NCBI RefSeq assembly: GCF_003725695.1
Contig: NZ_RJSE01000003.1
Coordinates: 219,127 to 283,126, forward strand
Source: Nocardioides marmoriginsengisoli
GTDB taxonomy: Bacteria; Actinomycetota; Actinomycetes; Propionibacteriales; Nocardioidaceae
Direction of reading: 5' to 3'
Length of the DNA: 64,000 nt
Part shown: in pieces, positions 52,734 to 56,206 of the stretch
Numbering within the stretch: position 1 is the first letter of the stretch
Layout: every line of letters starts with the position of its first letter
The notes under the pieces: model-generated
What the model was told of the DNA's origin: nothing
The model's database searches: none
What the model saw: the letters and a program-made list of their open reading frames with translations, nothing else
Translations under genes and position numbers: made by a program

Positions 52734-53318
52734 CTATCGGGCGGTTGCTGAGTTATTCCTACCGCCGGCGGGGGTTCCGCCTGCGGAGGCGGGGCCGTCG
52801 TCCGCCTGGGTTTGTACTGAATTTCCAGCGGGTGGCGGCGGGAGCTTGATGTAGCGCGGCTTCTTGTTGAACTCCTCCGGCAGACCGGCCGGCAACGAGG
52901 TGATCCGCATCGTGTCCTCGCTGGTCGCCGGCGTCGGGATGCCGCTGATCTTGCCGGTACGCAGGTCGATGAACGCGGGCACCGGCGGCACCACCATGCC
53001 GAGCTTCCGGCCGGCCGCCGCCAGCTGCTGCGGGTCGCGCAGCCGGGCGACCTCCATCTCCAGCGCCTGCCGCTTGGCGGCCAGTGCGTCGGCGCGCTGC
53101 TGCAGCGAGGTGGCGTAGAACGACGCCTGCTGCATGTGGGTGTTGAACATCAGCAGGCCGACCACGCCGGCACCGAGCAGCAGGGCGACCAGGACCGCGA
53201 ACGGTGCCCGCGGGGCGCGGACCGTCCGGGTCGGGACCAGAGCGAGCCGGGCCCGTTCGATCGCCGACGGCGCCTGCCGGGGGACGCGGACGCGACCGGG
53301 GTTGACGAGACTGCTCAT
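52734..53318 (-). CDS. FtsL-like divisome membrane protein
   Basis: A 194-residue bitopic protein: basic cytoplasmic N-terminus (1-38), one helix ([19 protein letters not shown], about 40-58), then a coiled coil with [23 protein letters not shown] and a [10 protein letters not shown] motif seen in FtsL/FtsB-like proteins, and a Pro/Ala-rich C-terminus. The location between rsmH and ftsI is that of ftsL. Sequence is too variable for a firm name. Start overlaps rsmH stop (ATGA). Confidence 0.8.
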
Positions 53319-54268
53319 GCCGCTGCCCTCACTCGTTCCACGGCGCGGAGCCGCACCGACGCGGCCCGCGAGTTCTCGGCGATCTCGGCCTCGGTGACCT
53401 TCTCGGCACCGCGGGTGATCAGGCGCAGCTCCGGCTGGAACTCCTCCGGGACGACGGGCAGGTCCACCGGCGCCTTCGAGCGGGTCCGGTCGACGAAGGT
53501 CTCCTTGACCATCCGGTCCTCCAGGGAGTGGTAGCTCATCACCACGACCCGGCCGCCGACGGCGATCGAGTCGAGCGCCGCCGGGATCGCCCGGCGCAGC
53601 ACGCCGAGCTCGTCGTTGACCTCGATCCGCAGCGCCTGGAAGGTGCGCTTGGCCGGGTGCCCGCCGGTACGCCGCGCCGGCGCCGGGATGGTGTCGTAGA
53701 GCAGCTCGACGAGCCGGCCCGAGGAGGAGAACGGTTCCGTCTCCCGCTCCCGTACGACGGCCCGGGCGATCTGGCGCGCGAACTTCTCCTCGCCGTACGA
53801 CTTCAGGATCCGGGCCAGGTCGGCGCCGCTGTAGGTGTTGAGCACGTCGGCAGCGGTGAGTCCGGTGGTGTCGTTCATCCGCATGTCCAGCGGGGCGTCC
53901 TCCGCGTAGGCGAAGCCGCGCTCGCGGACGTCGAGCTGCATCGAGGAGACGCCGAGGTCGAAGAGGATGCCCTGCACCGGGCCCATCCCGAGCCGTTCCA
54001 GGACGTCGGGGATCTCGTCGTACACGGCGTGCACCAGGGTGGTACGGCCGGCGAACGGCTCCAGGCGCTTCCCGGCCAGCTCGAGGGCGTGCACGTCGCG
54101 GTCGATGCCGAGGACGTGCGCGTTCGGGCAGCGGGTCAGGACCGCCTCGGTGTGGCCGCCGAGGCCGAGGGTGGCGTCGATCAGGACGCTGCCGGGCTCG
54201 GCCAGGGCCGGAGCCACCAGGGCGACGACCCGGTCGAGCAGGACCGGGACGTGGAGGGGGGCGCTCAT
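53315..54268 (-). CDS. rsmH: 16S rRNA m4C1402 methyltransferase
   Basis: A 317-residue SAM-dependent methyltransferase (MraW). SAM site [15 protein letters not shown], then [22 protein letters not shown] and [13 protein letters not shown] are family blocks. It methylates N4 of C1402 in the ribosomal P site. Follows a small membrane-protein gene by seven bases. Confidence 0.96.
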
Positions 54269-54275
54269 CGGGGCT

Positions 54276-54419
54276 CTACTTCCCGAGTCCGACGAGCAGC
54301 GTGAAGGTCAGCGCGAGTCCGATGCTGACGGCCGCCGAGAACGCCATCACGGCGAGCCCGTCGCGTACGTCGTGGCGCACGCGTCGAGCCGGTGTGACCG
54401 ACTCGCGTACAACCTGCAT
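54276..54419 (-). CDS. 47-residue small membrane protein between mraZ and rsmH
   Basis: An open frame too short for most gene finders. It begins [16 protein letters not shown], has a basic N-terminal half and a single hydrophobic helix (about residues 24-45: [21 protein letters not shown]) and ends LGK, TAG. AGGGG lies eight bases before the ATG, it stops seven bases before rsmH, and base use fits coding sequence. It sits where a small FtsL/FtsB-like partner could be, but it is unrecognised. Confidence 0.68.
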
Positions 54420-54448
54420 GGCTCGACCCCTGGTGTGGTTGGTGACGG

Positions 54449-54573
54449 GTGGTGATCGCCTGACCAGGTTCGGGTCCGCTCACCGCTCGGGAAGCGGCCT
54501 TCTGTCACCGGGGAAGGTGCGACAGACGGCACGTGAGAAGGAGCGGACACGAACCTCGTCCTGCGATCACCGT
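54449..54573 (-). ncRNA. Structured RNA element upstream of the rsmH gene
   Basis: On either strand the bases fold into a multibranch structure. Outer stem GGTGATCGC (54451-54459) with GCGATCACC (54563-54571), perfect. Inner stem 54466-54481 with 54541-54556, 15 of 16 paired. Within it are hairpin CCGCT/AGCGG (54483-54497) and hairpin TCTGTCACC (54501-54509) with 54516-54526, which has a two-base bulge. It fills the 182-base mraZ-rsmH spacer. An actinobacterial 'mraW RNA motif' is known at this place; I cannot confirm that this is a member. Confidence 0.7.
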
Positions 54574-54601
54574 TGTTGACTTGTGCGGGTGCTGCCCCGG
54601 A

Positions 54602-55030
54602 CTAGAAGCCCGGGAAGATCTCTTCCGAGACGTCCGAGAACGCCTGCTCCTGCGCGGCCGTGTAGTCGGCCCAGGCCTGCGGTTCCCAGATCTCGATCCG
54701 GTTGTAGATGCCGATCACGACGCAGTCCTTCTCGAGCCCGGCGTACGCCCGCAGCTCGGGAGTGACCGTGAACCGGCCCTGCTTGTCCGGGGTCTGCTCC
54801 GAGGCGAGCGCGAACAGCATCCGGCCATAGCCGCGGAGCCGGGCGTCGGTCTGCGACGCGTTCTGGAACTTCTCGGCGAACACGTCGAAGTCGGCCTTGG
54901 TGCGCATGTCGATCGAGCGCTCCTGACCTCGGGTGATCACCAGCCCGTCCCCCATCGCCTCTCGGAATTTCGCGGGGAGGAAGAGCCGCCCTTTGTCATC
55001 GAGCTTCGGGGTGAAGGTGCCGGAGAACAT
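54602..55030 (-). CDS. mraZ: Transcriptional regulator MraZ
   Basis: A 142-residue protein with two AbrB-like (SpoVT) halves: FSGTFTPKLDDKGRLFLPAKFRE and FALASEQTPDKQGRFTVTPELR. MraZ forms a ring that binds tandem repeats in its own promoter and represses the dcw operon. Four such repeats lie just upstream at exact 10-base spacing. First gene of the cluster that runs to wag31. Confidence 0.97.
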   Translation of the reverse strand: MFSGTFTPKLDDKGRLFLPAKFREAMGDGLVITRGQERSIDMRTKADFDVFAEKFQNASQTDARLRGYGRMLFALASEQTPDKQGRFTVTPELRAYAGLEKDCVVIGIYNRIEIWEPQAWADYTAAQEQAFSDVSEEIFPGF

Positions 55031-55053
55031 CGCGCCACCTCATCCCTCTCTTC

Positions 55054-55095
55054 CTCCACTTTCCCCCACCATACTCCACATTGCTCCACCGTCAA
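55054..55095 (-). promoter_or_regulatory. MraZ-box array and dcw promoter
   Basis: Read on the minus strand, GTGGAG, GTGGAG, GTGGGG, GTGGAG begin every 10 bases (plus-strand CTCCAC/CCCCAC at 55084, 55074, 55064, 55054). A -35 TTGACG (55090-55095) and -10 TATGGT (55068-55073), 16 bases apart, overlap the boxes, so MraZ binding would block RNA polymerase. Confidence 0.88.
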
Positions 55096-55219
55096 CCACA
55101 TCTGCTCCCTTTCTCACCCCTTGTGGCCACGGATTCGCCCGGACCGCTTTTCGGTCACGGATCCGTGGCGGTTTCGCCGACGGCGGGACCGGCTACGACC
55201 GATGAGGTTGACTAGGGGC

Positions 55220-56206
55220 ATGGAGGCTTGGGAGACGGAGATCGGGCGCGGGGTACCCGCCAACGGCCTGGACGCGCTGCGGTCGGTGACCGACCGGGTG
55301 CAGGCCAACATCGAGAAGGTGATCGAGGGGAAGCCCGAGGTCGCACGGACCGCGCTGGTGGTCCTCCTCGCCGAGGGGCACCTGCTGATCGAGGACGTCC
55401 CCGGCGTCGGCAAGACGATGCTGAGCAAGGCGCTGGCCCGGTCGATCGACCTGACCGTCCGCCGGATCCAGTTCACTCCGGACCTGCTGCCCTCGGACGT
55501 GACCGGGGTGTCGATCTTCAACCAGGACACCCGGGAGTTCGAGTTCCGTCCCGGCGGCATCTTCGCCAACATCGTGATCGGCGACGAGATCAACCGGGCC
55601 TCCCCCAAGACCCAGGCGGCGATGCTCGAGTGCATGGAGGAAGGGCAGGTGACCGTCGACAACCAGACGTTCCTGCTCGACGCCCCGTTCATGGTGGTCG
55701 CCACCCAGAACCCGCTCGAGATGGAGGGCACCTACGCCCTCCCCGAGGCGCAGCGGGACCGGTTCCTGGCCCGGGTCTCGATGGGCTACCCGGTGATGGC
55801 CGCGGAGATCGCGATGCTGTCCGCCCGGGAGACGACCAGCCCGATCGACGAGCTCGAGCCGGTCACCGACGCCGCCGAGATCCGCAAGCTGATCTCGATC
55901 GTCGGCGGCGTGCACGTCGCCGCCTCGGTGCAGCGCTACACGGTCGCCCTGATCACCGCGACCCGGACCTCCCCCGACCTCCGGCTGGGAGCGTCGCCAC
56001 GCGCCACCCTGCACCTGGTCCGCGCCGCCAAGGCCGCCGCCGCGATGGCCGGCCGGGACTACGTCGTCCCGGACGACATCGCCACCCTGGCGCCCGCGGT
56101 GCTCGCCCACCGGCTGCTCCCGACCGTCGAGGCCTCGATGAGCGGACGAGGGCCGGCCGAGATCCTCAGCGGCATCCTGGCCGCGGTCGCGGTCCCCGAC
56201 CAGTAG
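55220..56206 (+). CDS. MoxR family AAA+ ATPase
   Basis: A 328-residue MoxR ATPase. Walker A DVPGVGKTML, Walker B VIGDEINRASPKTQ, sensor VATQNPLEMEGTYALPEAQRDRF. It likely acts as a chaperone with the DUF58 and transglutaminase proteins encoded next. ATG at 55220 has a TTGACT six bases upstream and poor ribosome site, so may be leaderless; an in-frame ATG at 55202 is the alternative. Divergent from mraZ. Confidence 0.93.
   Translation: MEAWETEIGRGVPANGLDALRSVTDRVQANIEKVIEGKPEVARTALVVLLAEGHLLIEDVPGVGKTMLSKALARSIDLTVRRIQFTPDLLPSDVTGVSIFNQDTREFEFRPGGIFANIVIGDEINRASPKTQAAMLECMEEGQVTVDNQTFLLDAPFMVVATQNPLEMEGTYALPEAQRDRFLARVSMGYPVMAAEIAMLSARETTSPIDELEPVTDAAEIRKLISIVGGVHVAASVQRYTVALITATRTSPDLRLGASPRATLHLVRAAKAAAAMAGRDYVVPDDIATLAPAVLAHRLLPTVEASMSGRGPAEILSGILAAVAVPDQ

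Follow-up and report, generated by a model that had tools for sequence, protein, structure and literature searches.

The window analysed here (the whole stretch of 64,000 nucleotides) carries mraZ and rsmH on its minus strand, separated by a spacer with a structured RNA element and a small open reading frame (ORF). The features are:

54602..55030, minus strand: mraZ, the upstream gene (PF02381, E 2.7e-35)
54451..54571, minus strand: mraW RNA (RF01746), a single long hairpin in the mraZ-rsmH mRNA (Rfam match, fold, and covariation)
54563..54571, minus strand: basal stem, 5' strand, partner of 54451-54459 (9/9 complementary, paired in the MFE fold)
54451..54459, minus strand: basal stem, 3' strand (complementarity, MFE fold)
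54541..54556, minus strand: middle stem, 5' strand, partner of 54466-54481 (15/16 complementary, paired in the MFE fold)
54466..54481, minus strand: middle stem, 3' strand (complementarity, MFE fold)
54501..54526, minus strand: apical stem-loop of eight pairs (54501-54508 with 54519-54526), loop ACCUUCCCCG (MFE fold; helix 3 of the covariation test)
54510..54516, minus strand: CUUCCCC, the near-invariant loop sequence (in 201/201 mraZ-linked loci)
54489..54494, minus strand: second CUUCCC, in a 3' internal bulge, mostly unpaired (MFE fold; enriched in relatives)
54276..54419, minus strand: hydrophobic small ORF of 47 aa between the mraW RNA and rsmH (in 23/24 genus loci)
53315..54268, minus strand: rsmH (mraW), encoding a 16S rRNA methyltransferase, 3' of the mraW RNA (PF01795, E 3.2e-109)
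55068..55095, minus strand: predicted sigma-70 type promoter upstream of mraZ (consensus match only)

Because mraZ and rsmH are both on the minus strand, the RNA runs from 54571 to 54451. The initial annotation had placed the element between these two genes, ahead of a small membrane protein and rsmH, and this placement is right, with the hydrophobic 47-aa ORF and all other features on the minus strand. A consensus scan of positions 54200-55300 returned just one promoter-like site, 5' of mraZ, and none within the mraZ-rsmH spacer of the window. An intrinsic terminator (a hairpin followed by a U tract) was considered for the element and rejected, as 54200-55300 contains 0 terminator-like sites. 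At the predicted mraZ promoter, CCAC (GTGG on the mRNA strand) occurs five times within 55056-55099 at a spacing of exactly 10 bases, which matches the layout of MraZ boxes.

The 47-aa ORF (54276-54419) has no match in Pfam. Among the genus loci (L001-L024), L016 is the one without it, and it also occurs at L061, L063, L064, L066, and L161-L166, with a conserved motif resembling RRVRHxxRDxxxVMxFS. Small hydrophobic ORFs of other kinds occupy this site in other clades; the filter for such ORFs retained 51 of 243 loci.

Folded as mRNA (minus strand), the element has a predicted energy of -75.6 kcal/mol, compared with -46.1 ± 3.6 in dinucleotide shuffles (z -8.24), a value equalled by 0 of 200 shuffles; the plus strand folds more poorly (z -5.55). 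The outer arms (9/9) and inner arms (15/16) pair exactly where the initial annotation had described them, and its judgment that this much pairing exceeds chance is borne out by the shuffles. Its description of the structure as multibranch does not hold for this copy, since the minus-strand MFE structure forms a single long hairpin, interrupted by internal loops and bulges but free of any multiloop. Of the two internal hairpins that had been proposed, one is recovered as the apical stem-loop, and the other is a bulge. The loop sequence is not rare in itself: the 7-mer CTTCCCC has four matches in the window versus 9.4 expected.

The element almost certainly belongs to the mraW RNA family (RF01746), as a cis element of the mraZ-rsmH message. 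In a permissive scan of 451 bases, the Rfam covariance model is matched over its full length (model positions 1-107) at 54453-54565 on the mRNA strand, with 35.6 bits and an E-value of 7.7e-6, and the window copy is the top RF01746 match of the whole genome (E 1.8e-5). This score is lower than the Rfam gathering cut-off of 50 bits, which is a reporting threshold, and a scan of the window at that threshold gave 0 matches. Since copies at the same locus in the same genus reach 53.6, 52.9, 51.8, and 50 bits, at or over the cut-off, we read the low score as a matter of sensitivity and not as a missing feature; it is probably due to the longer stem and the bulge of the window copy. The defining location of the family (upstream of rsmH/mraW, on the same strand) was found in the window and in its relatives. 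Between the two options that had been raised, a member of the known motif or a new type, the full-length match, the location, the covariation described below, and the relatives over the cut-off decide for membership. The window copy shares with the published motif (PMC2864571) the whole model on the mRNA strand, the CUUCCCC loop, the position upstream of rsmH, and an actinobacterial host; it differs in its sub-cut-off score, in the 47-aa ORF before rsmH, and in the second CUUCCC in a bulge.

Within the genus, RF01746 matches occur in 24/24 genomes at E ≤ 10 (over the cut-off in 4/24), and the top match of each genome sits between mraZ and rsmH (L001-L024); five weaker matches lie at other sites (L025-L028 and L030; E 0.0018 to 0.09). 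The MraZ proteins of L002, L003, L016, and L017 are more distant (37-43% identity). Matches were found in 193/296 genomes across the class at E ≤ 1e-3 (86/296 exceeding the cut-off), in 147/151 genomes of family f5 at E ≤ 1e-5, and in 10/197 genomes of a phylum sample at E ≤ 1e-4, all ten from the class of the window, and these three surveys lose weak matches through their stricter E filters. At the loci around matches outside the genus (L031-L139), rsmH lies beside CUUCCCC in 109/109 and mraZ is present too in 107/109. We inspected 28 of the 103 class genomes without a match at E ≤ 1e-3, and 18 of them (17 plus G001, which is the same as L024) carry CUUCCCC upstream of rsmH, so Rfam under-counts the family. 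The RNA is nonetheless not universal in the class, and the ten inspected genomes that lack CUUCCCC all belong to genus g22.

As a conserved and structured leader, the element could in principle be a metabolite riboswitch, and in the table of its discoverers (Weinberg et al. 2010; PMC2864571) the row for the mraW motif reads 'y', 'y', '?', 'Actinomycetales', with the '?' in the third column. The association with rsmH at all 109 of the loci above is one with a single gene, and the fold is one hairpin with no junction, which makes this reading highly unlikely. Riboswitches usually serve several genes, and the column that holds the '?' is presumably the one for 'switch'.

Covariation in relatives was examined at two depths. 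In the genus alignment (MAFFT, 23 sequences, with the two-hairpin locus L016 excluded and the tested structure derived from the same alignment), 97.7% of cells are paired, and double changes occur at 14/32 pairs versus 5.0 in shuffled alignments and in 45 cells versus 10.0, with 0/500 shuffles reaching either value. A weaker measure, the number of further pair types, gives 25 versus 20.0 (reached by 6/500 shuffles), and sliding the columns by 1-3 positions drops pairing to at most 43.4%. The wider alignment (A2) has 120 rows, of which one per source was kept (96 sources) and the 87 from outside the genus were counted; in these, fitted to the covariance model in a way that favours the model's own pairs, double changes occur at 31/32 pairs versus 23.9, and in 499 cells versus 130 (200 shuffles). 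Because the rows of A2 were selected by UUCCCC, which removes reverse-strand matches, the 99-100% conservation of its loop columns is partly by construction and is not counted as evidence. The initial annotation had named missing covariation and loss of pairing in close relatives as reasons to give the structure up; both were looked for in the mraZ-rsmH spacers and neither was found, covariation being strong in the genus and in the 87 wider rows alike.

G-U cells outnumber A-C cells (161 versus 80), which favours the mRNA strand as the one that folds. A single pair of the apical stem accounts for 25 of the 80 A-C cells: at A2 columns 88 and 133, A-C or C-A is found in 25/87 rows, and G-U or U-G in 1. 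To judge from these rows, the mismatch at this position may itself be under selection.

CUUCCCC is present in the spacer of all 201 mraZ-linked loci, although 152 of these were found by an RNA model that itself contains the loop; the claim of conservation therefore rests on the 49 that were selected without an RNA match (picked via rsmH, or as Rfam misses at some threshold, in sets of 23, 1, and 25), of which 49/49 carry it. The flanking arms pass a strict test at 199 of the 201 loci and are weaker at L097 and L123. In a check of 134 loci, all located by the loop-containing model, TTCCCC is missing from none. The survey has 242 entries after a duplicate of L016 (L029) was dropped; it includes the window's own locus (L014), and two genomes are contained twice (L131/L168 and L134/L173).

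The loop motif has also been multiplied. At 67/233 loci, tandem hairpins included, an additional CUUCCC follows the loop on its 3' side at a distance of 12-52 nt, versus a mean of 1.5 (largest 5) in 100 shuffles; on the 5' side, one is found at 14/233. The 3' copy of the window is at 54494-54489. Two full hairpins with CUUCCCC in each are found at 18 loci (17 mraZ-linked loci plus L163) from ten genera and four families, including L016 of the same genus as the window, while L215, L220, and L224, which passed the arm test and resemble bulge copies, were excluded from this count. On an RsmH gene tree (FastTree, 238 tips, 18 tandem), the tandem hairpin requires at least 10 gains or losses, versus 17.5 with shuffled labels. 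Tandem relatives exceed the single-hairpin model of RF01746; the window copy does not. A near-invariant loop that is present in two copies in some lineages suggests that a molecule reads it. At L155 and L156, the mraZ-rsmH spacer has an uninterrupted hairpin (∼25 and ∼37 pairs by eye) with the loop GCUUCCCC in place of the interrupted stem.

Genomes without mraZ separate the RNA from its upstream neighbor. In family f18, a MraZ match is present in 25/61 genomes and absent from 36/61, and the region upstream of rsmH was examined in 39 genomes treated as mraZ-less (among them G039, with a sub-cut-off MraZ match of 19.8 bits). The CUUCCCC hairpin with an intact loop is kept in 29/39: in 25/25 of those from five genera other than g22, and in 4/14 of those from g22 (G284 with a five-pair arm), where 10/14 have lost it. 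The retention of the RNA in these genomes indicates that it follows rsmH rather than mraZ. At L203 there is no recognizable mraW RNA at all upstream of rsmH, and at L190, L191, L192, and L226 the middle stem persists after the loop has decayed, so stem and loop are separable.

Three candidate readers of the loop were tested, namely RsmH, MraZ, and KhpA, and none found support as a necessary one. MraZ is the neighboring regulator, and the 10/10 genomes without a CUUCCCC hairpin are also without mraZ; the intact loops in the mraZ-less genomes of the five other genera (25/25) and in 4/14 of g22 make it extremely unlikely as the reader, and those 25 genomes reject it as a necessary one. Autogenous control, in which RsmH would bind the leader of its own mRNA, with the leader possibly imitating the enzyme's 16S rRNA target, would account for an RNA that tracks rsmH and not mraZ, and RsmH is an RNA-modifying enzyme (by its PF01795 family). 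We consider this improbable. Of 83 RsmH columns with a conservation of 95% or more across loop-intact genomes, 0 change in three or more of nine loop-decayed genomes (L203 excluded), an absence of co-change with which RsmH could still be the reader. The generally accepted substrate of RsmH is the assembled 30S subunit. Autogenously controlled leaders are known, e.g., those of ribosomal proteins, and share with the present case an RNA element that precedes the gene for an RNA-acting protein; they would differ from it in that RsmH here appears, from the sequences compared, not to have changed along with the loop. KhpA/KhpB was rejected as a necessary and as a general reader: PF13083 is over its cut-off in 17/18 genomes including all nine loop-decayed ones, and Corynebacterium glutamicum has an intact loop and just a sub-cut-off PF13083 match (21.2 bits).

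The C-rich loop could also match G-rich Shine-Dalgarno sequences and block translation by pairing in cis with the ribosome-binding region. When all 21 orders of its letters were compared over 181 loci, CUUCCCC ranked 21/21 (the worst) against the region from the hairpin to rsmH, pairing less well than each of the 20 other orders, and this candidate was rejected; against the mraZ start region (175 loci) its rank of 13/21 is unremarkable. The mraZ-rsmH spacer also varies from 102 to 464 bases across loci. Such pairing is barely credible.

Transcript ends from corynebacteria bear on whether the stem is processed. In a C. glutamicum RNA-seq study (PMC3890552), the 5' end of rsmH is at 2,266,932 and the motif at 2,267,021-2,266,916. 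Mapped onto our C. glutamicum locus (L160), where the motif spans 106 bases and the ATG comes exactly at the end of the published leader, this 5' end falls in the basal stem, on its 3' strand, and lacks a TAnnnT at the -10 position. The 5'-end library, as described there, was enriched for triphosphate ends, which favors a start site; the end may be such a site or a protected product of cleavage. For C. diphtheriae, the motif is reported upstream of the rsmH start and a 5' end downstream of the motif (PMC5784534), and a small-RNA study (PMC4046766) includes the mraW motif, at cg2377, in its list of leader RNAs. With these ends, inside the motif in C. glutamicum and after it in C. diphtheriae, at least part of the rsmH mRNA of the two species lacks the intact RNA.

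These ends would also fit a motif that works at rsmH as DNA, in the manner of a promoter or operator, in place of an RNA, as the 5' ends in the two corynebacteria lie at or after the motif. The arms covary as their sequence changes, G-U pairs exceed A-C, the spacer of the window is free of promoter-like sites, and a -10 box is absent at the published C. glutamicum end; a DNA element is thus very unlikely. The long stem might instead serve chiefly for double-strand cleavage of the RNase III type, by which mraZ would be cut off from the rsmH-dcw message, with the loop secondary. This would fit the C. glutamicum end within the basal stem and its lack of TAnnnT, the C. diphtheriae end downstream of the motif, and the survival of the stem after loop decay in some g22 genomes; moreover, RNase III is reported to cleave the C. 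glutamicum mraZ mRNA, though in its coding region (PMC8247434, citing Maeda et al. 2016). It leaves the near-invariant CUUCCCC loop and its multiplication unexplained, and the triphosphate enrichment reported for C. glutamicum points rather to a start site, though it would also be compatible with processed ends that resist exonuclease. As the main function of the element, cleavage is rather unlikely; stem processing is nevertheless a strong rival to the recognition of CUUCCCC by a factor, or a companion step to it.

Four things are established here: the pairing is under selection at the RNA level, the loop is near-invariant, its motif has been multiplied, and the element stays with rsmH when mraZ is lost. 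The mechanism that we prefer, although we give it somewhat less than an even chance, is that a trans-acting factor reads CUUCCCC in this cis element. The long stem would present the CUUCCCC loop, in many cases along with another CUUCCC that is carried by a bulge close by or by an additional hairpin. The factor that binds the loop or loops would probably be an RNA-binding protein, and binding would alter the expression level of rsmH and perhaps of the rest of the dcw operon, probably through changed stability of the message or its processing at the long stem. Counted against such a reader, 10/14 g22 genomes live without the CUUCCCC hairpin, the corynebacterial 5' ends leave part of the rsmH mRNA short of an intact element, and RsmH, MraZ, and KhpA gained no support as necessary readers. 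More tentatively still, the hairpin could be a recognition unit of variable copy number for an RNA-binding factor of actinobacteria whose control of rsmH and the dcw operon would set in once transcription has begun, with a second copy (hairpin or bulge) repeatedly added and with loss under way in part of one mraZ-less genus. If so, it would represent a new, class-wide layer of control over cell-division genes that is independent of MraZ.

The mraW RNA family was already known, and what is new here is a further member and the family-wide pattern of the loop. The member in the window is ordinary; the part of interest is the near-invariant and repeatedly multiplied loop across the family. Among the matches listed in the literature searched, we found no functional study of the mraW RNA, which was published in 2010. 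The survey yields a concrete, testable recognition unit (CUUCCCC), offers naturally occurring forms with one copy, two copies, or a decayed loop that can be compared, and gives negative results for several obvious readers, all at the head of the division-machinery operon of a major bacterial class.

ANTAR-target RNAs are hairpins with a conserved loop, sometimes paired, in actinobacteria. The mraW RNA is likewise an actinobacterial conserved-loop hairpin that is sometimes doubled, but it differs from them in its loop sequence and in that 54200-55300 has no terminator-like site. Lastly, in L131, L134, and other loci of genus g22, which lack mraZ, GTGG-type repeats are seen by eye ∼10 bases apart on the 5' side of the mraW RNA, and in L131 they are accompanied, also by eye, by a promoter-like TTGACC-16-TAAAGT. 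From sequence alone, an MraZ-box-like element may have been retained in genomes without mraZ.
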